Part shown: piece by piece, positions 10,221 through 34,424 of the stretch
Layout of the letters: each line of letters starts with the position of its first letter
Position numbering within the stretch: position 1 is the first letter of the stretch
DNA from: Verrucomicrobiota bacterium
GTDB taxonomy: Bacteria > Verrucomicrobiota > Verrucomicrobiia > Verrucomicrobiales > DEV007
Reading direction: 5' to 3'
Assembly: GCA_018970725.1 (NCBI GenBank)
Contig: JAGWVU010000048.1
Coordinates: forward strand, 1-34,424
DNA length: 34,424 nt
Position numbers and translations under genes: made by a program
The notes under the pieces: generated by a model
Database searches by the model: none
What the model was told of the DNA's origin: nothing
The model's input: only the letters and a program-made list of their open reading frames with translations

Positions 10221-10236
10221 GCCGGGGTAACCCGGC
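10221..10236. terminator. GC hairpin downstream of mnmA
   Basis: A perfect stem GCCGGG/CCCGGC with a GTAA loop, 48 nt past the mnmA stop. No T-run follows, so intrinsic termination is uncertain. Confidence 0.35.
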
Positions 10237-10261
10237 ACCAGAGGCAGTCCGGTTGTTTCCT

Positions 10262-10297: not shown

Positions 10298-10379
10298 CAA
10301 CAGCCGGGCTGCCTTGTTTTTTCCGGCTTCCCGAGCGGATTGCCTTGCGTCCCCCCTCTTCCCCGGCTGAGATTCCCCC

Positions 10380-12236: not shown

Positions 12237-12314
12237 GGTGTTGCACGGAGAAAAGGAACGACCGCAACCCGTTTTCGAGCCCACCCTGATCCGTCCCGCA
12301 AGGCGCCCCTCGCG

Positions 12315-12934: not shown

Positions 12935-13690
12935 GTGAAACCCTGCTCTAAAGAGGATTGCACGCTCTATCATGAGGAACCGGCCCGCCGTCCGATGGCT
13001 TGTGTCTTTGGACACACCGGGGATCTCAACACCCTCGGGGCCCCGCCCTCACCCAACCGCCAGAAATCGATCCCATCCCTGATCCACGAAATCGGCCGCG
13101 CCGACGCCTTAGCCCTACCTTTCCTCATGATACATCCGAACGCACATCCCGTTCATGGCGAGGAAGTCGCACTGGCGAACATCGTGGCCGGACTCGACAC
13201 CGATTTTGGCGCCACGGCAGGTTCCCGGGTCCGCATCACCCTGGAAAACACGGCCGGGCAGGGATCCTTTCCCGGCTACCGGATCGGCCATCCGGCGGCC
13301 CTCATCGGACAGGGGCGATCCCCGGACCGTCCCGGGATTTGTCTCGAAACCGCCCGTTTTTTTGCAGCCAGCCACGATGGACGGACCGAGGCGGGTTGGG
13401 AAGCGGCGGTCCACGAGGTGGAGTCCAGCCTCGGTCTGAAACGATTGCTCGGGTTCCCCCTCAAAAACTCCAAGAAGCCCCTCGGCTCGAGGATCGATCG
13501 GCATGAGCATATCGGTCAGGGATCCCCCGGCCGGGAGGCGTTCCGCCGCATGGTCGATGATCCGAGGTTCGCCACCACCCCGGGCTGCCTGGAAACACCC
13601 AAACCAGAGGACAGTCACGCAGACCGGAAAAACCTTGCACTGTGGCGATCGTTGGCGGCGGATTGCTATCCAAAACTCGGTAAAGTATAA
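12935..13690 (+). pseudogene. nfo: Truncated, decayed endonuclease IV (Nfo)
   Basis: A 251-codon frame whose residues from about 29 onward align by eye with endonuclease IV, an AP endonuclease: SIPSLIHEIGRADAL, then IHPNAH, LENTAGQG (Glu kept), SRIDRHEHIG (Asp/His kept), DDPRF and LETPKPED. The first roughly 70 residues of the barrel, with the first zinc-ligand His, are missing. In the remaining metal site the usual LDTAH reads LETARFF (Asp to Glu, His to Arg) and the HLND His is Pro in FPLKNSKK. Residues 1-28 have no counterpart. The product would lack a working trinuclear zinc centre, so this is called a pseudogene, although the frame is still open. Confidence 0.8.
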
Positions 13691-13822
13691 CCACGCGAAC
13701 TGGGTTGCAAATTCATGAAAAAAACAATCCTACGGTATTTTTTTCTTTGATTTCAGATTCGAACCCGTAGTGTAAGGACTTGGAAATACGGGATTACGGA
13801 GTGTTTCACCCGAACGTTATCC

Positions 13823-14905: not shown

Positions 14906-14929
14906 GCCCGGGGTTGCTCAACAGGCCCT

Positions 14930-17479: not shown

Positions 17480-17654
17480 TGGAGGAAAACGACCGAAACG
17501 ATACGAAAGGGATGGGCGGGCGGGCGGTCCATGACGAACGAATCCCTCCGAATCTTCCCCGGCGCGGGTCCGGGAATGTGACGGATCATTCACGGTGAAG
17601 CCGATGCAAAGCCGCGAACCTTGATCAAGCATTGGGGTTTTCGCGCCTCAACCC

Positions 17655-20600
17655 ATGAATTCACCCCGTCCGCTCGCGCCTCTCGCTCTCTTTTTCAACC
17701 TCGCCGCCATCGCATCCCTGCAGGCGCAGACGGAGACGGTTGCCTATTGGAACTTCAACAGTTTATCCATCGCTACGGCTTCGGCTCCAGGAAGCGGCGG
17801 GGTGCCGACCTCCATCGCCGCGAACCAAGGGAACGGAACGCTATCCTTAACTGGTTGGACGGGTCTGGTCGATGATTTTGGCGGCTCCACGACCAACGCC
17901 ATCGGTCTCGACACCGCGGGAGCCTCTTTGAGCTTGGTCTCGAACGCCGGAAACGGCACCTACATCGAGCTGCAATTGAATCTTGCGGATTATGCCGACC
18001 CGATTGTCACCTTCGCCACGCGGGGAACGACCACCGGCTTCCCCACCGGATCTTGGTCATACAGTGTGGGCAATGGATCTTTCACCACCTTGGCCGGGGT
18101 GAACACCGCGACGACCAGCACTACATTCGCTCTGGCCACGGTCGATTTGAGTTCAATCGATGCCCTCGATGGCCAAGCCAATGTGCGGCTCCGCTACACG
18201 TTGAGCGGGGCCACGAACACGACGGGTAACAACCGGATCGATAACTTGAAGATTGTTGCCACCGTGACCCGCGATACCGCCGCACCGCTGGCCACAGCGT
18301 TCGCACCGCTGGACAACGCCACGAACGTCCCCGTGACCACAACGCCAACCGTCACCTTCAACGAGTCCGTGCAAAAGGGCACCGGCAACATCGTCATCAA
18401 GCGCAGCAGCGACAACTCCACGCTGGAGACGATCGCCGTTTCCTCCGCTCAAGTCACGATCAACGGCAGTTTGGTGACGATTACGCCAGGCGCGAACCTT
18501 GCGAGTTCCACCGGCTACTACATTGAAATCCCCGCCGGAGCGATCAAGGATTTGGCCGGGAACGTTTACGCCGGACTCAGTGCTGCGACCGCCTGGAATT
18601 TCACGACGAGTGCCCCCGCCGTGCTGCCCACCGCCACGGAGACGTTTGTCAACGGTTGGAAAGTGGGACCCACCGGCGCATCCATCGTGGCGGATTATTA
18701 CGCGGAGGGGAACGGTCAGGCGAACTTCGCCCGGTTCGATGTGGGCGTGTTCAACTTCACCAGGCTCGATTTCGGATTGTCCGGAGCCTCCCAGATCACC
18801 GGCGTGACCACCGCCGAATTCACCCTGCGACAAAATTTCCGTTCCTTCACTACCGGAACGCAATTCGAGTTTTTCCTGACGACGGATGGACCAACTGGAA
18901 AAACCTTTAACCCAGCGATTGCCAACGGGATTGATCCGTCCCAGTTCACTAACGCGCCCGTCTCCCTCGGCCAGTTCAGCTACACTCCCACGACGGTCGA
19001 TCCGACCTTCAACACGTTCACTCTCAGCCTGAGTCCGACCGCAAGCGCCACCTTGGCGGCTCGCATCAACACCGGTGAGGATTTCAGCATCATCCTCGCT
19101 GCGGTGAACGCACCAGACGCGATCACCTTTTCGGGTAAAGGCAACACCTTTGACCCGGGTGATCCCGCACTCAAGCTCACTGTCACCGAGACCACCGGGG
19201 TGGACGTGACCCCACCCACCGTCGTCTTCTTCACTCCGGCCGACGGAAGCGGCGGTCTGCCCATCGCTTCCAATCTCCGGGTCAACTTCAATGAAATCAT
19301 CCGCAAAGGTGCCTCCGGCACCATCACCATCTTGCGCAGCGCCGACAACTCCGTTTTCGAAACCATCCCGGTCACCAGTTCCCAGATCACCACCAATCTC
19401 GGCACCGTGACCATCGATCCGGCAAACTCCCTCGAGTCCGCCACCGGCTATTATGTCCAGATCAGCCCGGGAGCGATCGAAGATGCAAGCGGCAATGCCT
19501 TCGCCGGAATCAGCGATTCCACCACCTGGAATTTCAACACCGCACAACCGCCGATCACCAATCTCGGACCCTTCCTCGCCTCACAGAATGCCCCGGGCGG
19601 CACGGTCGTCGGACAGCTCAACAGCAACATCAACGGCAAGGAAGGGATCAGGTATTCCCTGCTCGGGGGCAGCGGCGGCACCACCATGATGAAGGCGGTT
19701 CCCGGCAGCGGTTACCTGGTGACGCCGATTTTCACCATTGGCGATACCATCAACTCGACCACCGGAGCGCTCAACCCGACCTCCGCCGGAAGCTTCTCAC
19801 CCGTCGGCACGCTGGATGGGATCGGAGCCTTCTCGCTCAATGCGAACACGGTGCGGGTCTTCACGAACCATGAAATCGAGCTGCCCGCCACCGGCGCCAG
19901 CGGGTATCCCTACACCTTGGCCAATGGAACGGTGATTTCAAAAGGAGGTTCCCGGATCAGCTATTGGGATATCGATAAGGCGACTCGCCGGGTCATCGAC
20001 GGAGGCCTGGCGATTGCCCGGATCTATGATCGCACCGGCACCGTGGTGACCAACTCCAGCCAGCTCGACCAAGGTGGTTTGGACCGGACTTGCTCGGCCT
20101 CTCTTTTTGAAGCCAATCTTTGGGGAGCCGGGCGCGGCCTGGCCGACCGGATCTACATCATGGGCGAGGAAACCTCCACCCCGTTCGGCCATCCCCATGG
20201 CGGGACCATGTGGGCGCTGGATCCTTCCAATGGAGATTTCTGGGCCCTGCCGGATTTTGGCCGTGGTTCCTGGGAAAACGCCGCGCTGGTCGATACTGGA
20301 ACCACCACCCATGTCGCCTTCCTGCTCGGAGATGACGCTCCGGCCCGCCCCCAGTATCTCTATGTAGGGCAGAAGAGCAGTGCCGCCGGAGCCAACTTCG
20401 TGGAGCGCAACGGTCTGAAAGGGGGCCAGTTGTATGTGTGGAAAACGACGAATGGTCAAACCACGCCACAGCAGTTCAACGGAACGGGGGCAAGCCGGGC
20501 GGGCACCTGGGTCGCCATCAACGCCCGTGACGCCTCCAAAGCAGGAACAACCGGCTACGACGCACAGGGCTACAAAAACGACTCCACCCTCGGCAGTGAA

Positions 20601-23600
20601 GCCGCTGCCGCGGGTGCGTTCCTCTTCTCCCGTCTCGAAGACGTGTCCACCAGTCCCACGGACGGCAGCATCGTCGCCTTCACTTCCACCGGCCGGGGCA
20701 GTGTCTATCCGCTGGATAACTGGGGGGATACCAACATCATCGACATCGATTTCAACGCCAGCGCCGTCCCCACCGCAGGAACCGTCCGGATCCTCTACGA
20801 CAGCGATGACGCCGGGGGCGGTCAGTTCATGACGCCTGAGGAAGGCTTGCGCTGCCCGGATAACTTGGATTGGGCGGACGACGGATTCATCTATGTCCAG
20901 GAAGACCAAGCCAACCAGACTGGAAACTTCGGCGCCGCCGGATTTGAGACCTCCATCTGGAAACTGAACGCCACCACGGGAGCGGCGCTGCGATTGACGG
21001 AGACAGATCGTTCCACCGTGCTCCCGCTCGGCTCCACGGACACCAATCCGAGCGATGTGGGGAACTGGGAGTCCTCGGGGATTCTCGATGTCTCCTCACT
21101 CTTCGGCGAAGCTCCGGGCGAACTCTTCCTCTTTGACTTGCAAGCTCACAGCGTGAACAACGGCCTGATTGCCACCAAGCAACTTTACGAAGGCGGGCAA
21201 CTCTGCTTCCTGGAGAAAGGAATCGAGAAGGGGGCGTTCAAGGTGAACCCGAACACCGGCGTCATCACCATCGCGAATCCCGACGCCATTGATCTGGCCT
21301 CGCAGGCCGCGTATCAACTGCGCCTGCAGGCGTTCGATGGGACCAACCACACCTTGAACCAAGTCACGGTCAACATCACCAACACGGCGGTCGCCACCTC
21401 CAACAGCTTCAAGGCCGCCACCTACAACATCAGCCACTACCGGAATGGTGCCGGAGTGCTTATCACGGATCTCGGCACCGTCACGAACACGCAGAGTCAA
21501 AACATCGCCCGGGTGATCCAGCGGAACAACCCTGACATCATCCTGCTCAATGAGTTCGATTATGATGAAGACGGCCGTGCCCTGCAGCGGTTTCAGGACA
21601 ACTACCTGGAGGTTGGTCAAAGCGGCGAATCCCCGGTCTATTATCCCTACGCCTTCATCGCACCATCCAACACCGGCGTCCACTCCGGGTATGACCTGGA
21701 TAACAACCGTGGGGTCGTCTCCACGCCGGGCGCTGGAAATGGCTACGGAGAAGACGCGTTTGGGTTCGGAGATTACCCGGGCATGTATGGATTCGTGGTG
21801 CTTTCAAAACATCCAATTGATCGGACCAACATCCGCACGTTCCAGAAGTTCCTCTGGAAGGACATGCCCGGCGCCATGCTGCCCGATGATCCCGACATTG
21901 CCGGCACGGGCGACTGGTATAGCCCCGCGGAATTGAACGTCTTCCGGCTCTCCTCCAAGAACCACGCGGACATACCGGTCTTGGTCAATGGGACCCCGGT
22001 GCATATCCTGGCCAGTCACCCCACGCCCCCGGTGTTCGATACGGGAGCTCCCTGGAAGGCCGGGGTGGATCACAACGGCCGCCGCAACAGCGATGAGATC
22101 CGCTTTTGGTCAGATTACGTGAATCCGGCCGCCTCCTCCTATATTTACGACGATAAACAAACCTTCGCGACACGGACGGGCGGTTTGCCGGCAAACACCC
22201 GCTTCCTGATTATGGGGGATCTCAACGCGGACAACAATGAAGGCGACAGCACCGATCCTGCCATCAAACAAATCATCGGTGGCGTCGCCACGGTCGGCGG
22301 AGCCACCATTTCCCCCAACGCCTTCGTCAACTCCACGTTCGTGCCCGGGGCCGGCGCCGGACCGCAACCGGATGACACCGCCGGATTCGGTGGTGGTGTC
22401 CGTGTGGATTACGTCTTGCCCTCGGCGTTTGGCATGACGGTCGATAGCGGGGCGGTTTATTGGCCGGGGGCCGGGGATCCCATGGCCGGGGCCATCACCG
22501 CGACGGACCACCATATGGTCTATCTCAACCTGACCCTGACTGGCGTCACGCCTCCTCCAAACACAACCCTGGTTAACTACTACGCATCCGCTGCCGGATT
22601 GACGGGGGCCGCCTTGCAAACCGCGCTGCACAACATCATCGATGATCACACGGTGATTGATTACAACACCGCCGCCAGTGTGATGCGGGTCATCGACGAA
22701 GCCCCTGGCGACAGCAACTCCATCCGGTTGCTCTACTCCAACGCGAACCTGCCAAAGCTCTCCACGCAGTGGAACCGCGAGCACGTTTGGCCCAGATCCG
22801 ACGGTGTGGATCAGGACGGCCCGGATTTCTCCGACCTGCACCACCTCTTCCCTTCGGAATCGAGCGTGAACAGCGTGCGCTCCGCCTTACCCTTTGACAA
22901 GAGCACGAGCAACGTGCAAAGCAGCCCGTTTGCTCCGGAATCCTTTGCGGACAACAATTCTTTCGAGCCGCACGATCGGGACAAAGGAGTCGTGGCCCGG
23001 GCCCTCCTCTACATGATGGTGCGTTATGATGGATCTGATCCGCTGACCAGTGACTTGATCTTGGCGGACAACACCTCGCCCACGGGCACTCACGGAGTCC
23101 TCAGCACGCTGCTGGCCTGGCACCGCGCTTTCCCGCCATCCGATTTCGAGCGCCAGCGCAACGACGCAATTTATAGCGGGGCCCAGGTCAGCGGGGTGAC
23201 CTACGCCCAGGGCAACCGCAATCCATTCATCGACTTCCCGCAGTTTGCCGACGGGATTTTCGTGGCCAGCACCGCGCAATCCTTCAGCAAGTGGCAGCTC
23301 GAGAATTTCACGATCGCCCAACTGCTCAACAGCGCGGTCTCCGGAGCCAACGTCGATGCCGACGGCGATGGCCGGACGAATTATGCGGAATACCTCACGG
23401 GCGGCGATCCCAACTCCGGGATCGATCCGTTGCTCACCATCACCCGCAGCGGAAGCAACGTGATCCTCTCTTTCCTGCGTCCCAAGGGCATCACCGAACA
23501 AACGGTGGTGCAAAGCTCCGCCACTTTGGGTTCCGCCAGTTGGCAGACCGTGACCAACTGGCAGGCTTCCGCTTCCTACATTGACCTGACGGACTACGAA

Positions 23601-23660
23601 CAGGTCAATGTCACCCTCCCCGCCTCCAGCGCGATGTTTTGGCGCGTGATCTTTCAGTGA
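17655..23660 (+). CDS. Giant secreted phosphohydrolase: PhoX-like + EEP nuclease + endonuclease I
   Basis: A 2001-aa exported protein. A signal peptide (cleavage near residue 24, LQA/QTE) is followed by a beta-rich domain (27-205), an SbsA-type Ig (208-318), a beta domain (324-515) and a second SbsA-type Ig (517-631). The PhoX/DUF839-like region (about 635-1190) has TNHE, Cys813 in DRTCSA, and GEE at 837-839. After a cadherin-like piece comes an endonuclease/exonuclease/phosphatase domain (1251-1632) with TYNIS, LLNE, GDLNAD (1521-1526) and TDHH. Endonuclease I (1638-1870) has NREHVWPRS (1707-1715) and DLHHLFPS. The tail holds a calcium-loop DADGDGRTNYAE (1901-1912) and a beta domain, perhaps for sorting. 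All catalytic motifs seem intact. Breaking down extracellular DNA and releasing phosphate is the inferred job. Confidence 0.93.
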   Translation: MNSPRPLAPLALFFNLAAIASLQAQTETVAYWNFNSLSIATASAPGSGGVPTSIAANQGNGTLSLTGWTGLVDDFGGSTTNAIGLDTAGASLSLVSNAGNGTYIELQLNLADYADPIVTFATRGTTTGFPTGSWSYSVGNGSFTTLAGVNTATTSTTFALATVDLSSIDALDGQANVRLRYTLSGATNTTGNNRIDNLKIVATVTRDTAAPLATAFAPLDNATNVPVTTTPTVTFNESVQKGTGNIVIKRSSDNSTLETIAVSSAQVTINGSLVTITPGANLASSTGYYIEIPAGAIKDLAGNVYAGLSAATAWNFTTSAPAVLPTATETFVNGWKVGPTGASIVADYYAEGNGQANFARFDVGVFNFTRLDFGLSGASQITGVTTAEFTLRQNFRSFTTGTQFEFFLTTDGPTGKTFNPAIANGIDPSQFTNAPVSLGQFSYTPTTVDPTFNTFTLSLSPTASATLAARINTGEDFSIILAAVNAPDAITFSGKGNTFDPGDPALKLTVTETTGVDVTPPTVVFFTPADGSGGLPIASNLRVNFNEIIRKGASGTITILRSADNSVFETIPVTSSQITTNLGTVTIDPANSLESATGYYVQISPGAIEDASGNAFAGISDSTTWNFNTAQPPITNLGPFLASQNAPGGTVVGQLNSNINGKEGIRYSLLGGSGGTTMMKAVPGSGYLVTPIFTIGDTINSTTGALNPTSAGSFSPVGTLDGIGAFSLNANTVRVFTNHEIELPATGASGYPYTLANGTVISKGGSRISYWDIDKATRRVIDGGLAIARIYDRTGTVVTNSSQLDQGGLDRTCSASLFEANLWGAGRGLADRIYIMGEETSTPFGHPHGGTMWALDPSNGDFWALPDFGRGSWENAALVDTGTTTHVAFLLGDDAPARPQYLYVGQKSSAAGANFVERNGLKGGQLYVWKTTNGQTTPQQFNGTGASRAGTWVAINARDASKAGTTGYDAQGYKNDSTLGSEAAAAGAFLFSRLEDVSTSPTDGSIVAFTSTGRGSVYPLDNWGDTNIIDIDFNASAVPTAGTVRILYDSDDAGGGQFMTPEEGLRCPDNLDWADDGFIYVQEDQANQTGNFGAAGFETSIWKLNATTGAALRLTETDRSTVLPLGSTDTNPSDVGNWESSGILDVSSLFGEAPGELFLFDLQAHSVNNGLIATKQLYEGGQLCFLEKGIEKGAFKVNPNTGVITIANPDAIDLASQAAYQLRLQAFDGTNHTLNQVTVNITNTAVATSNSFKAATYNISHYRNGAGVLITDLGTVTNTQSQNIARVIQRNNPDIILLNEFDYDEDGRALQRFQDNYLEVGQSGESPVYYPYAFIAPSNTGVHSGYDLDNNRGVVSTPGAGNGYGEDAFGFGDYPGMYGFVVLSKHPIDRTNIRTFQKFLWKDMPGAMLPDDPDIAGTGDWYSPAELNVFRLSSKNHADIPVLVNGTPVHILASHPTPPVFDTGAPWKAGVDHNGRRNSDEIRFWSDYVNPAASSYIYDDKQTFATRTGGLPANTRFLIMGDLNADNNEGDSTDPAIKQIIGGVATVGGATISPNAFVNSTFVPGAGAGPQPDDTAGFGGGVRVDYVLPSAFGMTVDSGAVYWPGAGDPMAGAITATDHHMVYLNLTLTGVTPPPNTTLVNYYASAAGLTGAALQTALHNIIDDHTVIDYNTAASVMRVIDEAPGDSNSIRLLYSNANLPKLSTQWNREHVWPRSDGVDQDGPDFSDLHHLFPSESSVNSVRSALPFDKSTSNVQSSPFAPESFADNNSFEPHDRDKGVVARALLYMMVRYDGSDPLTSDLILADNTSPTGTHGVLSTLLAWHRAFPPSDFERQRNDAIYSGAQVSGVTYAQGNRNPFIDFPQFADGIFVASTAQSFSKWQLENFTIAQLLNSAVSGANVDADGDGRTNYAEYLTGGDPNSGIDPLLTITRSGSNVILSFLRPKGITEQTVVQSSATLGSASWQTVTNWQASASYIDLTDYEQVNVTLPASSAMFWRVIFQ

Positions 23661-23662
23661 TC

Positions 23663-23699
23663 TCACCCATGTGCAGGAATGTCCGCCCTGCACGGGTGA
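23663..23699. terminator. Strong hairpin between convergent genes
   Basis: TCACCC (23663-23668) and GTGCAGG (23671-23677) pair with CCTGCAC (23687-23693) and GGGTGA (23694-23699), a 13-bp stem with one 2-nt bulge and a 9-nt loop. It begins 2 nt after the giant gene's stop and lies 34 nt beyond the stop of the opposing PDZ gene. No T-run follows, yet the position suits a bidirectional terminator or 3' end stabiliser. Confidence 0.6.
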
Positions 23700-23733
23700 A
23701 TTCGTTGGCCGAGGCCCGTCGTGGCAGCGCCCA

Positions 23734-24723
23734 TTACCGCGGCCTAGCCCACAGGGGCCGCTCTTCGATCACGTAATCGGCCACAACATAATGGATGCCG
23801 TCCCGGAGGAAATAGAGCTTCACGGGGTGATCGACGCCATACATGTAAAGCCACTTTTGAAAGTCGGCCACGCTGAGGATCCGGTTAAAGCCTAGTTGGA
23901 CCAGGATATCCCCTTCCCGGATGCCCATTTTTTGAGCGGGACTGTCTTCCCAGACATCCTCGATGGCCACGCCACCGTGATGCTTCTTCGCGGTGGGGAA
24001 AAACCGCTTTTCCGTGTCGCTCAGCGACCTGACGGAGAAGCCGGTCCAAGGTGACTTCAGGCTGCGCTTCGTCTTGAGGCTTTCGTAGATATTGAAACAG
24101 AGATTGATCGGCAGCAGGTGGGTTTCTCCCGTGTCTTCCGTGTGCCCTGGTTCCAAGGCCGGTTTGAAGCCGGTGCAAATCGCCGCCACGGCTCCGGACT
24201 CCGCGTAGAAAACCGGTCCACCGATGGAATCATCCGGAATGGTGATCCTGGCCCGGAACATCGTGGACGCCAGGCTATGCTGGTAGCATTGCTTCGTGTT
24301 CAGGGCGGTGATCTCGCCGTCGATGAAGCGGAGCGCGCCTTGATCCTCGCGAGCCACGGCTTGCAATTCGGCTCCGGGAACAGGGTCTTGGTTCACGGCG
24401 GCGGTGACGGGCGTGAACTCGGTGTCCGCTTGCAGTTTGAGAATCCCCAAGTTGAGGGTCGGCTCCACGCCAATGACTTCGGCGGCATAACTCTTGGTGC
24501 CGGATGCGGCCCGGATGCGATCCAGGAGCACTCCGGACGCGGGATCGATCAGATTCGTGTAGGTCGTGAGAACGAAGCCGTCTTTTTCCACGATGAAGCC
24601 CAGCCCGCGAGCCTCCAACGGTTCACGGATCCCGGCGGACAACCGGACAATTCCTCTGTCCGCCGTGTCCGCGGCGGGGAGGGCGGGAAGAAGGAGCAGA
24701 AGAAGCCAAAGCAAAGGTCTCAT
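23734..24723 (-). CDS. HtrA-like pseudoprotease with PDZ domain
   Basis: A 329-aa exported protein with signal peptide (PLLWLLLLLLPALPA, cleavage near 17-20). Residues 22-210 follow the trypsin-like HtrA fold (GLGFIVEKDGFVLTT), but the catalytic triad appears lost. The His position is Thr56, the Asp position Asn91 (NLGILKL), and the Ser position Ile167 (DSIGGPV). The C-terminal PDZ domain (about 250-310, AIEDVWEDSPAQKMGIREGDILVQLG) is well kept. It is therefore probably a periplasmic binding or scaffold protein, not a protease. ATG 24723 overlaps the cytochrome stop by 4 nt, so the two are translationally coupled; the open frame upstream to 25392 is not used. Confidence 0.88.
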   Translation of the reverse strand: MRPLLWLLLLLLPALPAADTADRGIVRLSAGIREPLEARGLGFIVEKDGFVLTTYTNLIDPASGVLLDRIRAASGTKSYAAEVIGVEPTLNLGILKLQADTEFTPVTAAVNQDPVPGAELQAVAREDQGALRFIDGEITALNTKQCYQHSLASTMFRARITIPDDSIGGPVFYAESGAVAAICTGFKPALEPGHTEDTGETHLLPINLCFNIYESLKTKRSLKSPWTGFSVRSLSDTEKRFFPTAKKHHGGVAIEDVWEDSPAQKMGIREGDILVQLGFNRILSVADFQKWLYMYGVDHPVKLYFLRDGIHYVVADYVIEERPLWARPR

Positions 24724-25184
24724 GGTGCAAAACTCTGGTTGAAGGGATTCACCTCGGTGCCCCGGGTGATGCGGATAAAGCCGTGTTGCGTGGCCACATG
24801 GCAGGCGTTGCAACTTTGCACGATCAGGTCGAGCCCGGCGACCATCCGTTCCTGATCCTTGGCGGCGATCGCCTCCTGCAGGGGCGCATAGGCCGGGTGC
24901 GCCATGCGGTCGATGAGGACGGCGATGGGAAGATTCTCGTATTCGGGCGCCTCGCGTTGGATTTTGCGGAGTTGTTCCTGTGATTCGTGCAGGTAGAAGG
25001 CAGCAAGTTCGGCGTTTCCGGCATCGGCGGAGAGTGCCAGCTTGTGGGTGAGCCGCTGAAGGTCCCCCATGAGCAGGGCCAATTCGGGCACGTCCGAGTC
25101 GGACGCCGGGGTCTGCGCGTGGAGGGCGAGCCCCAGCGAGCCGCAAAGGGCGGGGAAAAGGAGGCGGAGAACGGGGCGCTTCAT
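24720..25184 (-). CDS. Small periplasmic monohaem cytochrome c
   Basis: A 154-aa protein with a signal peptide (MKRPVLRLLFPALCGSLGLALHA, cleavage before QTP) and a single CxxCH haem site in the C-terminal part (SCNACH, residues about 124-129). The preceding region is helical (ELALLMGDLQRL, AAFYLHESQEQL). The haem near the C-terminus of a helical protein resembles cytochrome c'-like or small class II cytochromes, but I cannot assign the subclass or redox partner. The start at 25184 gives a good signal peptide; the open frame to 25325 runs into an unrelated gene remnant. Its stop overlaps the start of the PDZ protein gene (4 nt), suggesting the two work together. Confidence 0.85.
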   Translation of the reverse strand: MKRPVLRLLFPALCGSLGLALHAQTPASDSDVPELALLMGDLQRLTHKLALSADAGNAELAAFYLHESQEQLRKIQREAPEYENLPIAVLIDRMAHPAYAPLQEAIAAKDQERMVAGLDLIVQSCNACHVATQHGFIRITRGTEVNPFNQSFAP

Positions 25185-25678
25185 AGAGGAGGAATAGAAG
25201 AACCGGGAACCCGCCCCAGCAAGAGAATCTCGTGGAAGTCTGCCATGTGACGAAACTGTTTCCGAGTCGTGATGTTTTTTCTCCGTGGCGAAGGATCGCT
25301 TCTCCGCTTCGTTCAGCGGCCGCACGGCAAACCCTGTCCAGAGTGGTTTCAGGGTGCGCTTCGTCTTGAGGCTTTGGTGACGACTTCGTCACTGGAATTC
25401 ATCATGACCTGTGTCAGGTTTGAAGGTGATTCAGACGGCCTGCACGCGGTAGCGCGAATCCTGCCGGGACACCTCAGCCCTTCCCTACCACGGACCCGGA
25501 GCCTGAGTGACGATACTGTAACTTCTTGAGGCTGGATTCGGTGCAAATCCTCGACTAGGTCCGAATCGCCAGAAGGTCAGGACCCATCGGCTTCCCTTTG
25601 TGGGACATTGTTCGGTTTTGTCCTCTGCTCCCGATCAATTTTGAGCTGTCGTTGTTTTACCCACCCACGCCCTATTCG
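25185..25678. other. Intergenic region between cytochrome c and second giant gene
   Basis: This 494-bp stretch separates two divergent genes and must hold both promoters, though no boxes can be assigned. It includes the PDZ-gene remnant (25267-25378) and two inverted repeats in the likely leader of the giant gene. These are GATTCGG/CCGAATC (25535-25541 and 25561-25567) and GGACA/TGTCC (25603-25607 and 25619-25623). No known riboswitch is recognised. Confidence 0.5.
25267..25378 (-). pseudogene. Remnant of a second copy of the HtrA-like PDZ gene
   Basis: Read on the minus strand, about 37 codons translate as LKTKRTLKPLWTGFAVRPLN, continuing with EAEKRSF and EKKHH. This closely matches residues 216-249 of the 23734-24723 protein (LKTKRSLKSPWTGF and the rest). 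The DNA is also similar (compare 23970-24080). No start, stop or further domains of the copy are left, and the segment sits directly upstream of the cytochrome gene. It points to a past tandem duplication of the operon followed by deletion. Confidence 0.8.
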
Positions 25679-28600
25679 ATGAAGACGAAATTCCTCTCGC
25701 TCGCCTTGGCGGCCTTTACTCTGGGTTCGATCCCATTAGACACACAGGCGCAGAATTTTACATCGGGTAACCTGACCGCCGCATTGGCAAATTCCGCGAC
25801 GACGAACAACACGACGGTGTCAATTGTCGAGCTTTCTCCAACAACGGCCAACCAGTCCTCCCCCGTCCAAACCATAGCCATCGACAGCGGGTCATACCGG
25901 GTGAGTGGTAGTGCGACGTCGACTCTGTATCTTGCGAACAGCGCGGACGGCAGTTTGCTCGCCTTCACCGTTCACAAGTCGAGTAATACAACCGCAAATG
26001 CCAATACTCTTACCAGCCGTGGGGTGTTGACGTTGAATAACGCAAAGACCCTGGCGAACCCTGCTTCCTACACAGGAGCATCCGGCAACCAGACACGATG
26101 TGCCACCACCGTCAACAATTCCACCTGGTTTATCGGGGATCAGGGGGGCTTCTTCACAGATGGAGCGACGTCGCCAAGTCCTTCGGGAAACATTCGAGCC
26201 GTCAAGGCATTTGGGTCAAGCGTCTATGCCTTTACCGCTTCCGCTTCGTCACCTCCTGTAGGCACGATATCGGCCGCAACCGGGGGTACTTATTCGGCGT
26301 TGTCAGGTTTGTCCAATGGCGCGACGTCCCGACAGGACTTTTATCTGATCTCATCCGGCGGCAACGGCACCTTTGATGTTCTTTACGTTTTGGATACAAC
26401 CAGCGCAACCGCTGGCACCATCCTCAAGTATTCGCTGGTCAGCGGATCTTGGACCGCCAATGGCAGCTACACGACTTCTTTTGGTGGTTTTGGGTTGGCA
26501 GCGCGGAAGAACGGCTCCGGGGCGGATCTTTTTGTGACCACAGGCACGGGAGCGACATCCGCCAACAGCTTGATCAAGCTGAATGACACCGCGGGCCACA
26601 ACAGCACGATCAGTGTGACAACAGCAAATAACGTAACCCTTTACACCGCAGCTTCGGGCACGGTTCTCAAGGGGGTGGCATTCACGCCAGTGGCTGTCTC
26701 GACGCCAACCATCACCGGTGGCGCCACCGCGACCGCCCTCTCCACCACCTACGGCACCGCTTCCACCGCCCAAACCTTCAGCATCTCAGGCAGCAATTTG
26801 ACCGCGAGCATCACCGCCACCGCGCCGACTGGTTTTGAAGTCTCCAGCGATGGCACGACTTACGGTTCCACGGCCACCTTCACGCAATCTGGTGGTTCCG
26901 CGAGCGGCACCTTGAGTGTCCGGCTCGCCGCAACGGCGCCGGTCACGGGATCTTACAACTCACAAAACATCGCTCTGACGAGCACGGGCGCGACGACCGT
27001 GAACATCACCACTCCGGCCAGCGGCAACACGGTGACGGCCAAGGCCCTCACGATCAACGGCCTGACCGGAAACAACAAGGTTTACAACGGCACCGCGGCC
27101 GCCACGGTCACCGGCACCGCCGCTTACTCCGGCCTGGTGAACGGAGAAACGTTCAGCGTCACTGGCACGCCTTCCTTCACGTTCGCCGACGCCGCCGTGG
27201 GCAGCGCCAAGACGATCACCGTCACTGGCTACACCGCCCCGAGCACGAACTACTCACTGACCCAGCCTTCCCTCACGGCGGACATCACCACCGCGGCGCT
27301 TACGGTCACGGCAAACAATGTCACCAAGGTTTTCGGAGCCTCGTTGACTTCAATCACCGGTTCCACCGCCTTCACCAGCAGTGGTTTGGTCAATGGTGAA
27401 ACCATCGGATCCGTGACCATCACCTACGGCAGCGGGGCCGCCACCGGGGACCCGGTCGGTTCGTATGCCGGTGCGGTAGTTCCCTCCGCCGCCTCCGGCG
27501 GAACCTTCGCTGCCTCCAACTATGCCATCGCCTATGTGGCGGGAGGTTTGACCGTGAGCGCCGCGCCATCGATTTCGCCATCAGGAACTCCGGCCGCCGT
27601 CAGTGCCATCTACGGGAGCGCTTCCGCCGTTCCGACCAGCTTCAGCGTTTCCGCAGGCAACCTCACCGGTGACTTGACGGTGACGGCTCCGACCGGATTC
27701 GAGGTTTCCACCGCCTCCTCCGCAGGTTATGGCAGCAGCCTCACTTTGGTGGCCACCGGAGGCACCGTGGCGTCCACGACGGTCTACATTCGTCTCGGGG
27801 CGGCCAATCCCGCCGGGAATTATTCGGGGAGTGTGTCCATCTCCGGTGGAGGTGCCACCGCGGAAACCGTCTCTGTTCCTTCCAGCACCGTTTCACCCAA
27901 GGCCCTGACCGTCACCGGACTTTCCGGAGTGAACCGCGTCTATGACGGCGGGACAAGCGCCAGCCTGGCCGGGACAGCTGCCTACGATGGGCTTGAGAAC
28001 GGAGAAACCTTTTCCGTGGTCGGCACTCCCGCCGTGTCGTTTGGCAGTGCTGGTGTCGGCTCCGGGAAGTCCCTCACCGTGACCGGTTTCCAGGCACCGT
28101 CGGCGAACTATTCGGTGACGCAGCCCACCGGGTTGACGGCGGACATCACGGCCAAGGCCTTGACGCTGTCCGGCGCCGCCGTTGCCACAAAAGCTTTTGA
28201 CGGCACCACCGCTGCCACGATCACCGGCACATTGACCGGGGTGATCGCCCCGGATGTGGTCACCCTGAATGGCACCGGCACCTTCGCCAGCGCCAACGCG
28301 GGCACCGGCATTGCGGTCACGTCCACCAGCACCTTGGGCGGTGCGGGGGCGGGGAACTACACCCTGACCCAACCCACCGGGCTTACCGGAACGATCACCG
28401 GCAGCACCAACGCCAACTTGACCGCCTTGGCCATCAGCCCGGGCCAAATCATCCGCACCGGGTCCGGCACGTTCGGCCCCGGCTTCGCCACGTCCTCGAC
28501 GGATTACCTCGCCTTTCTCGCCAACGGGGCCACCAGCGTCACGGTGACGCCCACCTTGGCCGACAGCAACGCCACGGTGACGGTGAACGGGAATTCCGCC

Positions 28601-31600
28601 GGAACGTCGGTTGCTCTCAGTGAGGGCGCCAACACCATCACGGTCCTGGTCACCGCGCAAGACACCACCACGACCAAGACCTACACCATCACCGCATACC
28701 GTTCCGCCGCCGCTTTGACCGCCGGTTCGATCGCCTTCACCGGCTTCAACGCGGACGGGAACGACGACATCGCCTTCGTCGCTTTGACCACGATCCCGCA
28801 AAACTCGGTCATCTTCCTCTCCGATAACGAGTGGAACGGCTCGGCCATCGGTTCCGGCGGCGCCTTCAACGACTTCAACGAGAGCGAAATGGTCTGGGTC
28901 GCGCCCACGGGCGGTCTTGCGGCCGGTTCCATCGTGGTGTTGAACAATATTTCCACGACGCCCACCGCCAACACCGGCACGGTCCTTTACTCCAACCAAG
29001 CCAACCGCGGCTACAGCACCACGGCGGAAGCGGTTTACGCCTTCCAAGGCGCCGCGCAGACACCGGAGGTCTTCCTCGCCGGGATCACGACGGACACGGC
29101 GGCTTCGTTCACGAATACCGGCCTGACCACGGGGTCGCTGCTCACCCTCGCCAGTTCTTCCGACGGTGGCCGCTACAAAGGAGCCCGCACTGGTCAATCG
29201 ACCTTCGCCGGTTACCTGGCCCTGATCGGCAACGTGGCGAGCAACTGGGACGACATCGCCAACGGCGACGGCACTAGCTACCTTCCCTTCAGCACCACCG
29301 CCTTCACTTCCACCGCCAGCGACAGCCTCGTGAGCATCAGCAATGCGTCCGTCACCGAAGGCAACAGCGGCACCGCGACCTTGAGCTTCACGGTGACCCG
29401 CACCAACACCGCTGGCAGCTTCACCGTCGCTTACGCCACCGCTGACGGAACCGCGACCACCGCGGACAACGACTACGTGGCGGCCAGCGGCACGCTGACC
29501 TTCACTGCGGGCGGTGCGGCCACCCAGTCAATCTCGGTGACGGTAAACGGGGACACCAACGTGGAAGGGGATGAAACGATGCTTGTCACCTTGAGCGGGA
29601 TCTCCAACACCTTGGGGACGGCAACCCTCTCCAACACCTCTGGCACGGGGACCATCACCAACGATGAGCCTACAGTCCCGGTCATTACCCAGCAACCTTC
29701 CTCCCAAAGCCTCTATGTTGGGGCGCAAGCGACGTTGACCGTTGCGGTGACCTCCAGTCCCGCCGCCACCCTGCAGTGGTATCAGGGAGCGTCCGGAGTG
29801 ACCACGGCCCCCATTTCCGGGGCTACGGGAAGCAGTTACGTCACCCCGGCTCTCAGCAGCACCGGGTCGTTCTGGGTGCGGGCCACCAATCCCTCCGGCA
29901 GTGTCGACAGCCAAACCGCCACGATCAGCGTAAGCTACGCTCCGGCCCTGGCCAGCGGGAGTCCGAACGTTTTCACCCCGAACACGGCCACATGGAACCC
30001 CTCGGGCGTCACGGTGAACGGGACCACCTTCATCAATCTGGGGCTCCAAGGCGTTGGCCGGGTTTTGGCCAGTTCCACCGACCCGGCGACCGGCGAGACC
30101 CTCGGTTCGATTTCGGACCTCCAGATCACCGGTTGGACCCGGAATCAGGACGGCACCTACAGTGGCGCTTTCCAATCGCTGCCTGACCGGGGGTTCAATT
30201 CCGCGAGCATTTTCTCCAACTATGCGGCGCGCATCAACACCTTCAACTTCACCTTCACCCCCTATACCGCCTCCACCCCCACCACGTCCCAGAATCAGAT
30301 CGCAATGACCTTCGCCGGGTCGACCCGGTTTACCTACGATCACGATGGGAACAGTTCGACAGCTCCGGTTTACACCACCGGTCTGCTGGCGGACGCTGGC
30401 ACGACGCTATTCGGCACCAGCGTGCCTGTCCGCTCCGGAAACTCCACCCAGAGCGATGGCACCGTGAACAACCGTCTGACCCTTGACTCCGAGGGCCTGA
30501 TTCTGGATTCCCGTCCCGGCAAGGCTGGTTCCGGATGGATCGGCGATGAGTATGGCGCCTACATCTACCACTTCAATGCCTCCAAGCAGATCGACGGCCA
30601 GGTCCAGCTTCCGGCCGCCTTGATCCCCCGGGATTCCGGAGGCAACGTTTACTTCAAGGACAGCCCGGCCAACACCAGCGGCCGCCGCGTCAACCAAGGC
30701 ATGGAGGGCATTGCCCAAAGCCCCGACGGCACGCGCCTCTTCGGCCTCATGCAGAGTGCCCTGATGCAGGACAGCGGTGCCAGCGGCAACCAAAACCGCG
30801 TCTTCACCCGGCTGGTGGTCTATGATATCACTGGCTCGGACACGCCGAACGACCCGGTCCAGCAGTATGTGATCCAACTGCCCGCCGTCGACTCCTCCGG
30901 TTCTTCGACGAACGGCTCTGCGGTGGATCGCACTGCCGCGCAAAGCGCGATCATCGCGTTGAACAACACGCAGCTGCTGATCCTTTCCCGGGATGGCAAT
31001 GGTCGTGGTGCCTCCGGAGCGCCGGTCTTCAAATCGGTTCTCCTTGCCGACCTTAGCGGTGCCACGAACATCGATGGCACCTACGACAGCGCAGGAGCCG
31101 CGGTCGCTCCGGCCAACTCCCTGACCGCCGGGGTGACGAAGATTTCCTGGACGGAAGCGCTCAACATGCTGGCGATGTCCGGAACCAGTCCCGAACTGGC
31201 CAAGTTCGGTCTCAACCTGAACTCGGCCCCGGGCGACATCTACACGCTCTGCGAGAAGTGGGAAGCTCTGGCCCTGGTCTCAGCACAGGACAGCGCCAAC
31301 CCGAATGACTACTTCCTCTTCGTGGCCAACGATAACGATTTCCTGACTGCGAGCATCAATTATTTTGATGCCTCCGGGACCTTGCAGACCTACACCGGGA
31401 ACACGGTGGAAAACGATACCGTTGTTCTGGCCTATCGCGTCCGCATGACCGGTTTCAACCAGGCTCCCTTCCTTGCCAGCGCGCCCTCAGCTTCGCAGGC
31501 GGCTGCGGTGGGCACCGCCTTCTCTTTCACCCTGCCTTCGGGCACCTTCGTTGATCCCAACGACGACAGCCTCACCTACAGCGCGGCGCTGGCCAGCGGA

Positions 31601-34424
31601 GCCTCCCTGCCTGCGTGGTTGTCCTTCAATCCGGCGACCCGGGTGCTCTCGGGGACTCCTTCCCCCGTTGATTTGGGCTCGATCGTGGTTCGCCTTACAG
31701 CGACCGACGGCGGGTCGTTGTCCAGCACCACGGACGTGACCCTCACCGTGAGTCCGGCCAGCGGGTTCACTTACTTCCCCAACTCGGTCGCCTCCGGAGA
31801 TCCTCGCGAGACCAGCGTGGTTCTCTGGACCCGTGTGCTGGACGGCAACACATCGGTCGACCGCCCGGTGGCCTTGAGGATCTTGAAGAACACCACGACG
31901 GGTTCGGTCCCAGTGGTTGGCGCCACCACCGAGCTTCAGGGCACGAACGTTTGGACCGGAGGAACCCTCACCGCCCAGTCGGCCCACGACGGCGTCGTCA
32001 AGGTCAAGGTGACCGGCTTGGATGCGGATTCCACCTACTTCTACCAGTTCACCTACAACGGCCAGCGTTCCCCCATCGGCCGCACCCGGACCGCACCGGC
32101 CCCCGGCTCGAACCGGGTTGTGAAGTATGCGGCGATTAACTGCAACGACTATGTGGGTCGCTATTTCAACGCGCTCAAGCACCTCGCCGATCAAGAGGCG
32201 GACAACATCGACTTCGTCCTGAACCTTGGCGACTACATTTATGAGACGACGGGTGACGCGAGTTTCCAGACGACGTCCGCGGCTCGGGCCATGGTCTTTT
32301 CCAACCCCGCCGAGGCGATCAGTCTCGGTGGTGGCAACTACGCCGCCCAATCGATCGGCAACTATCGCGACCTCTACAAGACGATCCGTCAGGACCGCCA
32401 GCTCCAGCGCGTTCATGAGCTTTTCCCGATGATCAGCATCTGGGACGACCATGAGTTCAGTGACGACAACTGGCAGGACAACGCCACCTTCTTCGACGGC
32501 AAGGTCAACGAGCAGCAGAGCGCCCGGAAACGCAATGGGGAGCAGGCCTGGATGGAGTTCCTCCCTACCGAACGCGGCCTGGCCACCGATGGCAATTCGC
32601 TGAGCATCAGTTCCTCGATCCTCTATCCAAACACGGTCATCTACGATGCCTTCAACTTCGGCGGCAACCTTGACTTGGTGACCACGGACAGCCGATCCAA
32701 TCGGGCGGATCACCTGGTGCCCGAACAGGCCTTCCCGGCCACCGTTCCGATGGATGAGGACGCCACTGTGGCCACCCTGGCCGCGGCCTACGGCATGTCA
32801 GCCTCGACGTTTTCCTCGGCGGTTTGGCCTGGGATCAAGGACAACTTCGCCCCCTATGTGAACATCGACAACAGCGCTTACGCCGCCGTGAAGGCCGCGC
32901 TGCAAGCCATCGTCAGCGCAGGGGTTTCCGCCGAACTGGCCACCTTGCCCTCCGGTCAAACCGCAGCCACCACGGGCTCCGCTTACGCCACGGCCAATGT
33001 CGCCGGAAATCTTGACGCCAGCTTCGTGAATTCCATGTTCGCCGCCGCCGGGCAGACCCAACCGTTTGACGCCACCGCTCTGGCAGCGATGCCGCGCGGG
33101 TTGTCGTTCTTCCTCCTCGGCAAGACCGGCTTCTTCAGTGACTACGGGAGCCGCTACCAAGTGGTGAACCAAACCTTCCAGCTTTACGCCGGTTACACCT
33201 ATCAGGCTTTCCTTGCCTCCGGCGGTGCCTTGGGCCGCAATCAGGCCCTCTTCGGCACCACCCAGCAGACCTTCCTTGGCACGGCGCTCGCCACCAGCGC
33301 GGCCGCCGGGCGCACCTGGCGGGTCGTGGCCAGCTCCACGCCTTACACGCCCATCAAGTTTGAGCTCGGGGATCTTCCGACCGGGGTCAGCCTGCCCACG
33401 CAGGGTTCCATCAGCGGGGTCAGCATTCCGGCTTCGATTCCCTCCCAGTTCCTTGTCGAGTTCCTCTTGAATGCGGATGAGCCTTCCGGGTTCCCGCAAT
33501 ACCGCCAGGGGATTGTCGATCTCCTCGCCCAGTATGATTCCATTCTGGTCTCCGGGGACATTCACGCCCAGCTCGTCGGGAACAACCGTGCGAGCAACGG
33601 CCAGAAGGTCGTGGATTTCACCGTCCCGTCCGCCGCCTCGGGCGAATTCCGCCGGGCCGTCTCGGGAGCTTTTGCCGCCGTGGAAAATCTCATGACGCCT
33701 TCTGTGCGCGCTGCGACCGGACTCAGTGGAAACTTCACCTTCGACACCGCCCAGAAGCAGGCGGTGATCAATGCCACCGACGGCATCATCAAGAAGAACA
33801 CCACGGAGATGTTCGATGCTGATACCGCCACCCATGGCTACACCGTTTTCACCGCGGCGCCGGACGCGTTCACTGCGAATTTCCGTAAGATCAACGTCAG
33901 CTACGTTGACGACAACCTCTACGGTGATACCTCTTCCGCCCTCGACGCCCTGTTCACCCGGCAGCAATATGTCGTCACCAAGACCGGGAGCGGCGCAAGC
34001 ACGGACCTGTCGCTCGGCGTGCCCACAACGGTGACACCCACGGTGGCGGCGAACACCGGCGGGAGCGTTTCCGGCGGTGGCGAAGTCGTGATCGGTTCGG
34101 CCGCCACCTTCACCGCCACTCCGGCCGCGGGTTACCGCCTCCTGGGCTGGAAGGTCAACGGCGCCGCCGCTGGTTCCACCAATCCGTTGGTCACCACCGT
34201 CACTGCCGGCATGACCGTCGAGGCCAGCTTCACCTACCAAGTTCAGATTCTGCACTTCTACGGCGAAAGCGGCCTGCTCGGCATCACCACCGCTCCGATC
34301 ATGGGCGCGATGATCGACCGGTTCGACGATCAATACGCCAACACCGTCATCCTGGCCGAGGGCGATACCTTCATCCCCGGTCCTTGGCTGGTCGCGGGTG
34401 CGGATCCGTCCTTCAACCGCCTCC
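25679..34424 (+). CDS. Giant secreted protein, 3' end beyond window: phytase-like + PhoD + 5'-nucleotidase
   Basis: An open frame of 2915 codons with no stop seen, starting MKTKFLSLALAAFTLG with a signal peptide (about 1-24). In order: a propeller-like region (25-340); Ig-like, YDG and MBG repeats (341-910, partly duplicated); a cadherin-like beta-sandwich (914-1010); a domain like those with lamin-tail folds (1012-1210); Calx-beta (1214-1330); Ig (1334-1419); an esterase-like phytase domain (1420-1927; DSEGL, GMEGIAQSPDG); a putative Ig (1928-2029); PhoD with its N-terminal domain (2031-2757; VASGDP, NLGDYIYE, DDHEFSDDNW, SGDIHAQL); a bacterial repeat domain (2781-2852); and the start of a 5'-nucleotidase (from 2854; GDTFIPGPWL). 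Reading-frame phase was checked at several points along the gene. A role in extracellular phosphate release is inferred. Confidence 0.9.
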   Translation, partial: MKTKFLSLALAAFTLGSIPLDTQAQNFTSGNLTAALANSATTNNTTVSIVELSPTTANQSSPVQTIAIDSGSYRVSGSATSTLYLANSADGSLLAFTVHKSSNTTANANTLTSRGVLTLNNAKTLANPASYTGASGNQTRCATTVNNSTWFIGDQGGFFTDGATSPSPSGNIRAVKAFGSSVYAFTASASSPPVGTISAATGGTYSALSGLSNGATSRQDFYLISSGGNGTFDVLYVLDTTSATAGTILKYSLVSGSWTANGSYTTSFGGFGLAARKNGSGADLFVTTGTGATSANSLIKLNDTAGHNSTISVTTANNVTLYTAASGTVLKGVAFTPVAVSTPTITGGATATALSTTYGTASTAQTFSISGSNLTASITATAPTGFEVSSDGTTYGSTATFTQSGGSASGTLSVRLAATAPVTGSYNSQNIALTSTGATTVNITTPASGNTVTAKALTINGLTGNNKVYNGTAAATVTGTAAYSGLVNGETFSVTGTPSFTFADAAVGSAKTITVTGYTAPSTNYSLTQPSLTADITTAALTVTANNVTKVFGASLTSITGSTAFTSSGLVNGETIGSVTITYGSGAATGDPVGSYAGAVVPSAASGGTFAASNYAIAYVAGGLTVSAAPSISPSGTPAAVSAIYGSASAVPTSFSVSAGNLTGDLTVTAPTGFEVSTASSAGYGSSLTLVATGGTVASTTVYIRLGAANPAGNYSGSVSISGGGATAETVSVPSSTVSPKALTVTGLSGVNRVYDGGTSASLAGTAAYDGLENGETFSVVGTPAVSFGSAGVGSGKSLTVTGFQAPSANYSVTQPTGLTADITAKALTLSGAAVATKAFDGTTAATITGTLTGVIAPDVVTLNGTGTFASANAGTGIAVTSTSTLGGAGAGNYTLTQPTGLTGTITGSTNANLTALAISPGQIIRTGSGTFGPGFATSSTDYLAFLANGATSVTVTPTLADSNATVTVNGNSAGTSVALSEGANTITVLVTAQDTTTTKTYTITAYRSAAALTAGSIAFTGFNADGNDDIAFVALTTIPQNSVIFLSDNEWNGSAIGSGGAFNDFNESEMVWVAPTGGLAAGSIVVLNNISTTPTANTGTVLYSNQANRGYSTTAEAVYAFQGAAQTPEVFLAGITTDTAASFTNTGLTTGSLLTLASSSDGGRYKGARTGQSTFAGYLALIGNVASNWDDIANGDGTSYLPFSTTAFTSTASDSLVSISNASVTEGNSGTATLSFTVTRTNTAGSFTVAYATADGTATTADNDYVAASGTLTFTAGGAATQSISVTVNGDTNVEGDETMLVTLSGISNTLGTATLSNTSGTGTITNDEPTVPVITQQPSSQSLYVGAQATLTVAVTSSPAATLQWYQGASGVTTAPISGATGSSYVTPALSSTGSFWVRATNPSGSVDSQTATISVSYAPALASGSPNVFTPNTATWNPSGVTVNGTTFINLGLQGVGRVLASSTDPATGETLGSISDLQITGWTRNQDGTYSGAFQSLPDRGFNSASIFSNYAARINTFNFTFTPYTASTPTTSQNQIAMTFAGSTRFTYDHDGNSSTAPVYTTGLLADAGTTLFGTSVPVRSGNSTQSDGTVNNRLTLDSEGLILDSRPGKAGSGWIGDEYGAYIYHFNASKQIDGQVQLPAALIPRDSGGNVYFKDSPANTSGRRVNQGMEGIAQSPDGTRLFGLMQSALMQDSGASGNQNRVFTRLVVYDITGSDTPNDPVQQYVIQLPAVDSSGSSTNGSAVDRTAAQSAIIALNNTQLLILSRDGNGRGASGAPVFKSVLLADLSGATNIDGTYDSAGAAVAPANSLTAGVTKISWTEALNMLAMSGTSPELAKFGLNLNSAPGDIYTLCEKWEALALVSAQDSANPNDYFLFVANDNDFLTASINYFDASGTLQTYTGNTVENDTVVLAYRVRMTGFNQAPFLASAPSASQAAAVGTAFSFTLPSGTFVDPNDDSLTYSAALASGASLPAWLSFNPATRVLSGTPSPVDLGSIVVRLTATDGGSLSSTTDVTLTVSPASGFTYFPNSVASGDPRETSVVLWTRVLDGNTSVDRPVALRILKNTTTGSVPVVGATTELQGTNVWTGGTLTAQSAHDGVVKVKVTGLDADSTYFYQFTYNGQRSPIGRTRTAPAPGSNRVVKYAAINCNDYVGRYFNALKHLADQEADNIDFVLNLGDYIYETTGDASFQTTSAARAMVFSNPAEAISLGGGNYAAQSIGNYRDLYKTIRQDRQLQRVHELFPMISIWDDHEFSDDNWQDNATFFDGKVNEQQSARKRNGEQAWMEFLPTERGLATDGNSLSISSSILYPNTVIYDAFNFGGNLDLVTTDSRSNRADHLVPEQAFPATVPMDEDATVATLAAAYGMSASTFSSAVWPGIKDNFAPYVNIDNSAYAAVKAALQAIVSAGVSAELATLPSGQTAATTGSAYATANVAGNLDASFVNSMFAAAGQTQPFDATALAAMPRGLSFFLLGKTGFFSDYGSRYQVVNQTFQLYAGYTYQAFLASGGALGRNQALFGTTQQTFLGTALATSAAAGRTWRVVASSTPYTPIKFELGDLPTGVSLPTQGSISGVSIPASIPSQFLVEFLLNADEPSGFPQYRQGIVDLLAQYDSILVSGDIHAQLVGNNRASNGQKVVDFTVPSAASGEFRRAVSGAFAAVENLMTPSVRAATGLSGNFTFDTAQKQAVINATDGIIKKNTTEMFDADTATHGYTVFTAAPDAFTANFRKINVSYVDDNLYGDTSSALDALFTRQQYVVTKTGSGASTDLSLGVPTTVTPTVAANTGGSVSGGGEVVIGSAATFTATPAAGYRLLGWKVNGAAAGSTNPLVTTVTAGMTVEASFTYQVQILHFYGESGLLGITTAPIMGAMIDRFDDQYANTVILAEGDTFIPGPWLVAGADPSFNRL

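Follow-up and report, generated by a model that had tools for sequence, protein, structure and literature searches.

The stretch analysed here, which we call the window, is a 34,424-nucleotide contig (C39) of a Verrucomicrobiota genome (G000; 4.9 Mb, 108 contigs, 96.5% complete), and carries two long open reading frames on the forward strand, genes A and B (Table 1). A preliminary description had assigned PhoX-like, EEP (endonuclease/exonuclease/phosphatase), endonuclease I, phytase-like, PhoD and 5´-nucleotidase-type domains to these two polypeptides. All six were found there, as documented by Pfam matches, a structural model of the PhoX-like domain, and the overlap of the window with a second contig, C61, that carries a 5_nucleotid_C match. 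The same description had fitted everything into 17 kb; the two open frames are present, but B is longer and its 5´-nucleotidase-like domain only begins in the window.

Table 1. Features of the A-B locus (window positions; E values are given with the Pfam matches)
Feature	Position	Strand	Evidence
Conserved 17-base block GTGACGGATCATTCACG upstream of A	17578..17594	+	pattern GTGWCGRAKSATTCACG
Gene A, multi-enzyme protein, 2001 aa	17655..23660	+	ORF and translation
Signal-peptide-like N-terminus of A	17655..17726	+	translation, by eye
Big_5 Ig-like domain of A, first of two	18273..18608	+	Pfam 1.4e-37, 2 stretches
PhoX-like beta-propeller phosphatase domain of A	19680..21224	+	Pfam PhoX 3e-14, partial profile
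EEP domain of A	21420..22511	+	Pfam 2.5e-25
Endonuclease I domain (EndA/Vvn type) of A	22602..23240	+	Pfam 4.9e-30
Trypsin-like/PDZ protein gene, recurrent neighbour	23734..24724 (about)	-	Pfam Trypsin_2 and PDZ
150-aa protein with CNACH (haem-type CxxCH) motif, recurrent neighbour	24735..25184	-	sequence and translation
Gene B, ATG start, first 2915 codons	25679..34424	+	open frame to contig end
N-terminal domain of B, outside any Pfam family	25679..26692	+	tblastn
Phytase-like (PF13449) beta-propeller domain of B	30341..31342	+	Pfam 3e-31
PhoD_N and PhoD domain of B, with insertion	31784..33697	+	Pfam 2e-20 and 2e-42
5´-nucleotidase-like domain of B, start (rest on C61)	34244..34424	+	5_nucleotid_C 7e-16 on C61

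The product of gene A is probably secreted. Pfam finds in it Big_5 in two stretches (the second domain at about residues 520-630, by eye), a partial PhoX match, a cadherin-like domain, EEP and endonuclease I, and NCBIfam assigns it to no family. Pfam was run on A and two orthologues, and the architecture of the remaining orthologues was read from the alignment. Orthologues occur in 14 other genomes at 59-87% identity, including the genus-mates G001 and G002, and the region from PhoX to endonuclease I lies in one frame in these 14 metagenome-assembled genomes (MAGs) at 65-91%, one copy (L090) being cut by a contig end. The MAGs are titled Verrucomicrobiaceae, Verrucomicrobiales, Verrucomicrobia, Prosthecobacter, Opitutaceae or Akkermansia muciniphila, and some titles contain lake or pond names. 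Judging by these titles, the Verrucomicrobiota that carry A and B probably live in freshwater.

The partial PhoX match is a real PhoX-type domain, because its AlphaFold2 model (pLDDT 78.9) aligns with Pseudomonas fluorescens PhoX (3zwu; Z 25.6, rmsd 4.0 over 430 residues; Foldseek 1.6e-19) and because a 15-sequence profile of the domain finds 3zwu at 9e-11; phosphatase activity is presumed. The next rows after 3zwu were other propellers, with Z no higher than 24.3 and fewer than 300 residues aligned. The profile aligns the positions of E273, D292, R385 and E387 of 3zwu, which we take to be ligand and catalytic residues, and all four are kept in 15/15 A orthologues. An invariant Cys lies upstream, not aligned to the position of C179, presumably the Cys ligand of PhoX.

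In the EEP domain, the N, E, H, GDxN, D and DH positions that we presume to be catalytic are invariant in all 15 orthologues; its sequence found no match in the PDB at E<=0.1. Since the N-terminal lamin-tail domain (LTD) of ExeM was not found in A by Pfam at E<=0.01, we file the domain as EEP and not as ExeM. EndA is a member of the endonuclease I family, to which the third enzyme domain of A belongs. The Vibrio nuclease 1oup gives a weak sequence match to this domain (E 0.0055), and its EH, DxH, N and R positions, again presumed catalytic, are likewise invariant in 15/15. In total, 20 presumed catalytic positions (six PhoX-like, eight EEP and six endonuclease I) do not vary among the 15 sequences.

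Gene B begins with a signal-peptide-like stretch (by eye); its mechanical ORF starts at a TTG at 25598, ahead of the ATG. The last 143 bases of the window are exactly the first 143 of C61, in frame with B, and nothing else in the genome matches this overlap at E<=0.001. Going by this one exact overlap, B would run on for 1,942 residues on C61, to about 4,857 aa in all. The part of B in the window also contains YDG/MBG, cadherin-like, Calx-beta and Ig domains, and the C61 part has matches to 5_nucleotid_C, InlB-type repeats, Calx-beta and Big_7. One relative (G082) encodes the N-terminal domain of B as a stand-alone unit that has a PEP-CTERM sorting motif and lies before A (L091:3543-4652).

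The PhoD domain of B matches the PDB entries 9uya (5e-31) and 2yeq (9e-27). The window and 3/3 orthologues retain its Cys, Asp, DDHE and GDxH, and the Tyr three residues after the Cys is Phe in the three orthologues. Because B scores 119.5 bits against an NCBIfam equivalog cut-off of 1000, we describe it as having a PhoD domain and not as a PhoD equivalog. The phytase-like domain has the conserved acidic motifs DRGxN, DxEG, DEYG and RRxNxG. Its model shows a propeller fold at low confidence (pLDDT 65.8), for which the best rows are tied between glutaminyl cyclase (Z 13.5) and human apyrase (Z 13.4), and its profile gave three chance-level matches only among PDB sequences.

The 5´-nucleotidase-like domain of B aligns with the Thermus thermophilus 5´-nucleotidase 2z1a at 3e-27, and we compared it in seven B-family sequences (that of the window in two pieces, L068, L069, L075, L134, L136 and L139) with the two-metal site of UshA, which we take to comprise D41, H43, D84, N116, H217, H252 and position 254. 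In UshA numbering, the D84, N116/H117 and H252 positions are kept in 7/7; D41 is lost with a one-residue deletion that breaks the DxH motif, and the H43, H217 (to Gln) and 254 positions are replaced. The GG[IL]R and ANGGD motifs of the nucleotide-binding C-terminal domain are kept. Because several metal ligands are lost, we do not file the domain as a working 5´-nucleotidase and, to judge from the alignment, this one of the six domains looks inactive. The proposal that the locus supplies enzymes for DNA, nucleotides and organic phosphates is upheld in part: the presumed catalytic residues are kept in the PhoX-like, EEP, endonuclease I and PhoD domains, but several metal ligands of the 5´-nucleotidase-like domain are not. 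Four mosaic giants (L072, L073, L074 and L079) show the reverse of the B family, with D41 and H217 kept and H252 lost, and three of them (L072-L074) have two such domains per protein; L078 of the genus-mate G001 is also of this kind. Two contig ends of G001 (G001:C40 and G001:C182, with L067 and L078) carry sequences like the region of B from the repeats to the nucleotidase, perhaps a shared repeat that hinders assembly.

Genes A and B do not form an operon, since the trypsin/PDZ and CxxCH genes separate them on the other strand. The 150-aa CxxCH protein has no Pfam match. As in the window, the same two genes stand ahead of B on the opposite strand in G080, G081, G085, G086, G087 and G089, and 7 of the 14 other A loci have a trypsin/PDZ gene nearby, within the flanks covered. 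Between the CxxCH gene and B, positions 25268-25446 of the window hold a partial 3´ copy of the trypsin/PDZ gene (77% over 111 bases). A subtilase directly follows A in three relatives (G079, G085 and G089), fitting a use of extracellular macromolecules.

The remainder of the window was scanned as well. Positions 7644-17632 encode a Gate (nucleoside recognition) domain protein, an MnmA-like protein, a POT/PTR2 transporter, a xylose-isomerase-like protein and an FtsX/MacB permease, with no known phosphate gene among the ORFs scanned; nor was a known phosphate transporter found among the scanned ORFs neighbouring A and B. The nearest nucleoside-related match among these ORFs is the Gate-domain protein, 8.6 kb before A. 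The first 4600 positions have a GC content of about 53%, against 57-68% across the remaining window, and are possibly an acquired stretch; two ORFs tested within them had no Pfam match, and a tRNA-Leu(CAA) gene lies nearby at 5867-5947. Rfam found this tRNA and no other RNA family in the window.

A B-family gene shares the contig of A in 8 of 15 A-bearing genomes; in three of the other seven (G077, G081 and G084), the contig stops too close to A for linkage to be judged. B follows A by 2.0 kb in the window, ends about 0.9 kb before A in G079, and is divergent from A in G078, with 166 bp between the open frames; elsewhere the distance is 3.7 kb (G080), 7.3 kb (G089), 14.8 kb (G085) or 35-36 kb (G086 and G087). 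Before A in G082 there is only the stand-alone N-terminal domain of B, and the contigs of G076, G083 and G088, 15-45 kb long, showed no phytase/PhoD-type B next to A. Conservation of the two genes side by side had been suggested as a check; they share a contig in these eight genomes, two genes lie between them in the window, and G001 has A without a phytase/PhoD-type B.

The association of A with B was counted in the family of G085 (68 genomes), in which A was scored, full or fragmentary, at E<=1e-60, and a B-like match was a phytase or PhoD region at E<=1e-60 among at most eight candidates scored per genome. Such a match is present in 10/11 genomes with A and in 7/57 without (Fisher 6.6e-7, ignoring relatedness and genome gaps), and the PhoD-bearing form of B (at least 66%) in 5/11 and 0/57, respectively (4.4e-5, again ignoring both). 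Around G000 the picture differs: full-length A occurs in 3/76 genomes, and only one of the three, that of the window, has a phytase/PhoD-type B. This B is absent from G001, a 96%-complete genome of the same genus in which A is present. Of the 73 genomes without full A, 6 match one of the two regions at E<=1e-60 (phytase region in G048, G055, G070, G071 and G073; PhoD region in G005). Co-occurrence of the two genes, which the preliminary description had made a touchstone, is strong in one family and was seen in one of the three genomes with full A around G000.

Upstream of A, the pattern GTGWCGRAKSATTCACG is present in 10 of 15 genomes, nine times exactly and once with one mismatch (G079). At other places in the same 15 genomes it matches exactly once, inside an ORF (G000:C87), and with one mismatch 11 times; the reversed pattern, used as a control, gave 0 matches. 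A reading of the block as a regulon-wide operator is not supported, because the exact form lies upstream of A and only once elsewhere, within an ORF. We also applied a direct-repeat score for Pho boxes to the upstream sequences, of 300 bp at most, of 15 A, seven B-family and 15 pstS-like loci. No consistent Pho box was found upstream of A or B, and most of the pstS control loci likewise gave no signal: three of the 15 A regions (L089, L091 and L097) reached a p of about 0.01 or less, none of the seven B-family regions fell below 0.1, and among the controls, several of which are probably mis-chosen ORFs, L159 reached 0.02 and L151 0.05, with the rest higher.

The modules of B are reshuffled between species, whereas the enzyme region of A is unshuffled in 15/15 genomes. 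No PhoD match was found in the B-family proteins of G077 and G086, and no 5_nucleotid_C match in that of G079. B-family and related giants mix Phytase-like, PhoD, choice-of-anchor I, 5´-nucleotidase-like, EEP, PhoX-like, SdiA-regulated and lamin-tail domains, and the order and number of modules vary among those scanned. Their sizes include 3574 (L068), 3166 (L069), 2768 (L072), 2918 (L074), 2255 (L079), 3105 (L124), 3724 (L134) and 3533 aa (L136). L073, of 4427 aa, combines PhoX, phytase-like, EEP and nucleotidase-like domains. Among more distant proteins, L099 has PhoX, choice-of-anchor I and EEP; in L102, from the planctomycete Stieleria, a dockerin match accompanies PhoX and choice-of-anchor I; and the 2046 aa of L101, from a cyanobacterial MAG, include two PhoX domains, a GDPD domain and phytase-like domains.

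Taking together the domains, the PhoX-like fold, the invariance of the presumed catalytic residues, the co-occurrence in one family and the partial linkage, we consider it rather probable that A and B are secreted and, as polyenzymes, digest nucleic acid and organic phosphates in the surroundings of the cell. In this model, the endonuclease I and EEP domains of A would cut DNA or RNA to oligonucleotides and nucleotides, and phosphate would be taken off mono- and diesters by the PhoX-like domain in A together with PhoD in B. Further phosphate esters may be substrates of the phytase-like propeller in B. The 5´-nucleotidase-like domain probably binds nucleotides and may no longer cleave them, while the Ig, cadherin, Calx-beta and repeat domains would keep the catalysts apart and present them extracellularly. 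We infer secretion, the activities, the order in which substrates are used, and phosphorus, as against nitrogen, carbon or nucleosides, as the main gain. A more daring version, which we hold to be unlikely, is that of a fused extracellular assembly line, in which A would cleave nucleic acid and begin to remove phosphate, leaving a partly interchangeable B to complete the dephosphorylation. The nucleotidase-like module would then have turned into a nucleotide-capture domain feeding the PhoD and phytase-like domains, and lineages would swap modules to match the local organic phosphorus.

Other uses of such proteins have to be weighed. At the cell surface, the modules could be there to remodel the matrix or for defence, acting in dispersal, on slime DNA, or on the DNA of phages and competitors, with phosphate release as a by-product. 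There is precedent in Shewanella, where ExeM strongly affects biofilm formation and detachment and it is EndA that serves phosphorus use, according to the passages we cite (PMC6085458), and the recurrent neighbours of the two genes are trypsin/PDZ, CxxCH and subtilase genes, not phosphate transporters. We nonetheless regard a matrix or defence role as improbable: in A, B and the mosaic giants scanned, the nucleases come with phosphatase-type or phosphatase-like modules, and a pure matrix nuclease would presumably need neither PhoX nor PhoD. It is also conceivable, if doubtful, that A and B are ordinary long surface mosaics of Verrucomicrobiota with little functional coupling, brought close together by a region of secreted-protein genes. 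The differing order and content of modules among the B-family and related proteins scanned would agree with this, as would the 35-36 kb between the genes in G086 and G087 and the similar proteins in a planctomycete and a cyanobacterial MAG. Against it stand the integrity of the enzyme region of A in all 15 genomes, the strong co-occurrence of A and B in one family, and the make-up of the scanned B-family proteins, in which most enzyme-type modules are either propellers or directed at phosphoesters or nucleotides.

If the scavenging model is correct, steps in the use of extracellular DNA and organic phosphate that are carried out by separate enzymes elsewhere have been packed into two giant proteins. 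This would make a testable claim about phosphorus recycling in freshwater, and about why several catalysts stay on one chain. The B-family 5´-nucleotidase-like module, which is without several metal ligands, is also a warning that activity is overestimated when it is read from the names of domains alone.

In Shewanella and Pseudomonas, domains of these kinds act in the use of DNA as separate proteins, and phosphate limitation plays a part (PMC6085458, PMC3572637). In Pseudomonas aeruginosa, the secreted DNase EddB is made when DNA is present and phosphate limiting and is required for DNA as a phosphate source; the alkaline phosphatase EddA, encoded upstream, may be required too (PMC3572637). 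The likeness is that a nuclease gene neighbours a phosphatase gene, although in the window two other genes intervene, and EddA and EddB are separate proteins, whereas here PhoX-like, EEP and endonuclease I domains share one chain and PhoD, phytase-like and nucleotidase-like domains another. Shewanella oneidensis EndA, ExeM and ExeS are likewise extracellular nucleases, of which ExeM is an EEP enzyme; EndA is mainly required for the use of DNA as a phosphorus source, and ExeM has a strong effect on biofilm formation and detachment (PMC6085458). These three are separate proteins, and ExeM (871 aa) has a lamin-tail domain, which A is without, and no phosphatase fusion among the domains described for it in the sections we draw on (PMC6085458). 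The "DNA-degradation loci" of Candidatus Izemoplasmatales are similar in that secreted nucleases and phosphohydrolases are clustered and were read as serving extracellular DNA use; they include ABC and phosphate transporters and a nuclease protein of 1,049 aa (PMC8289736). A and B, in contrast, are far larger and have no phosphate transporter among the ORFs scanned. Fusions of organic-phosphate domains have been described in cyanobacteria, with several such enzyme domains per polypeptide, as in L101; in the parts of these reports that we cite, they have neither a nuclease domain nor a second giant partner, unlike A and B (PMC3610870, PMC11098088).

A literature search over titles and the beginnings of abstracts, with most subscription journals outside its scope, found no paper describing the arrangement of A and B. 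The preliminary description had known of no such system; this remains so for the exact arrangement, but the principle has been described for EddA/EddB, EndA/ExeM and the Izemoplasmatales, as far as the passages cited go. The best explanation is that A and B represent a fused variant of known scavenging by nuclease plus phosphatase, as in EddA/EddB and EndA/ExeM, and no new principle. What is distinctive here is the fusion of two nuclease types and PhoX in one conserved chain, together with a variable second giant and a degenerate nucleotidase-like module.
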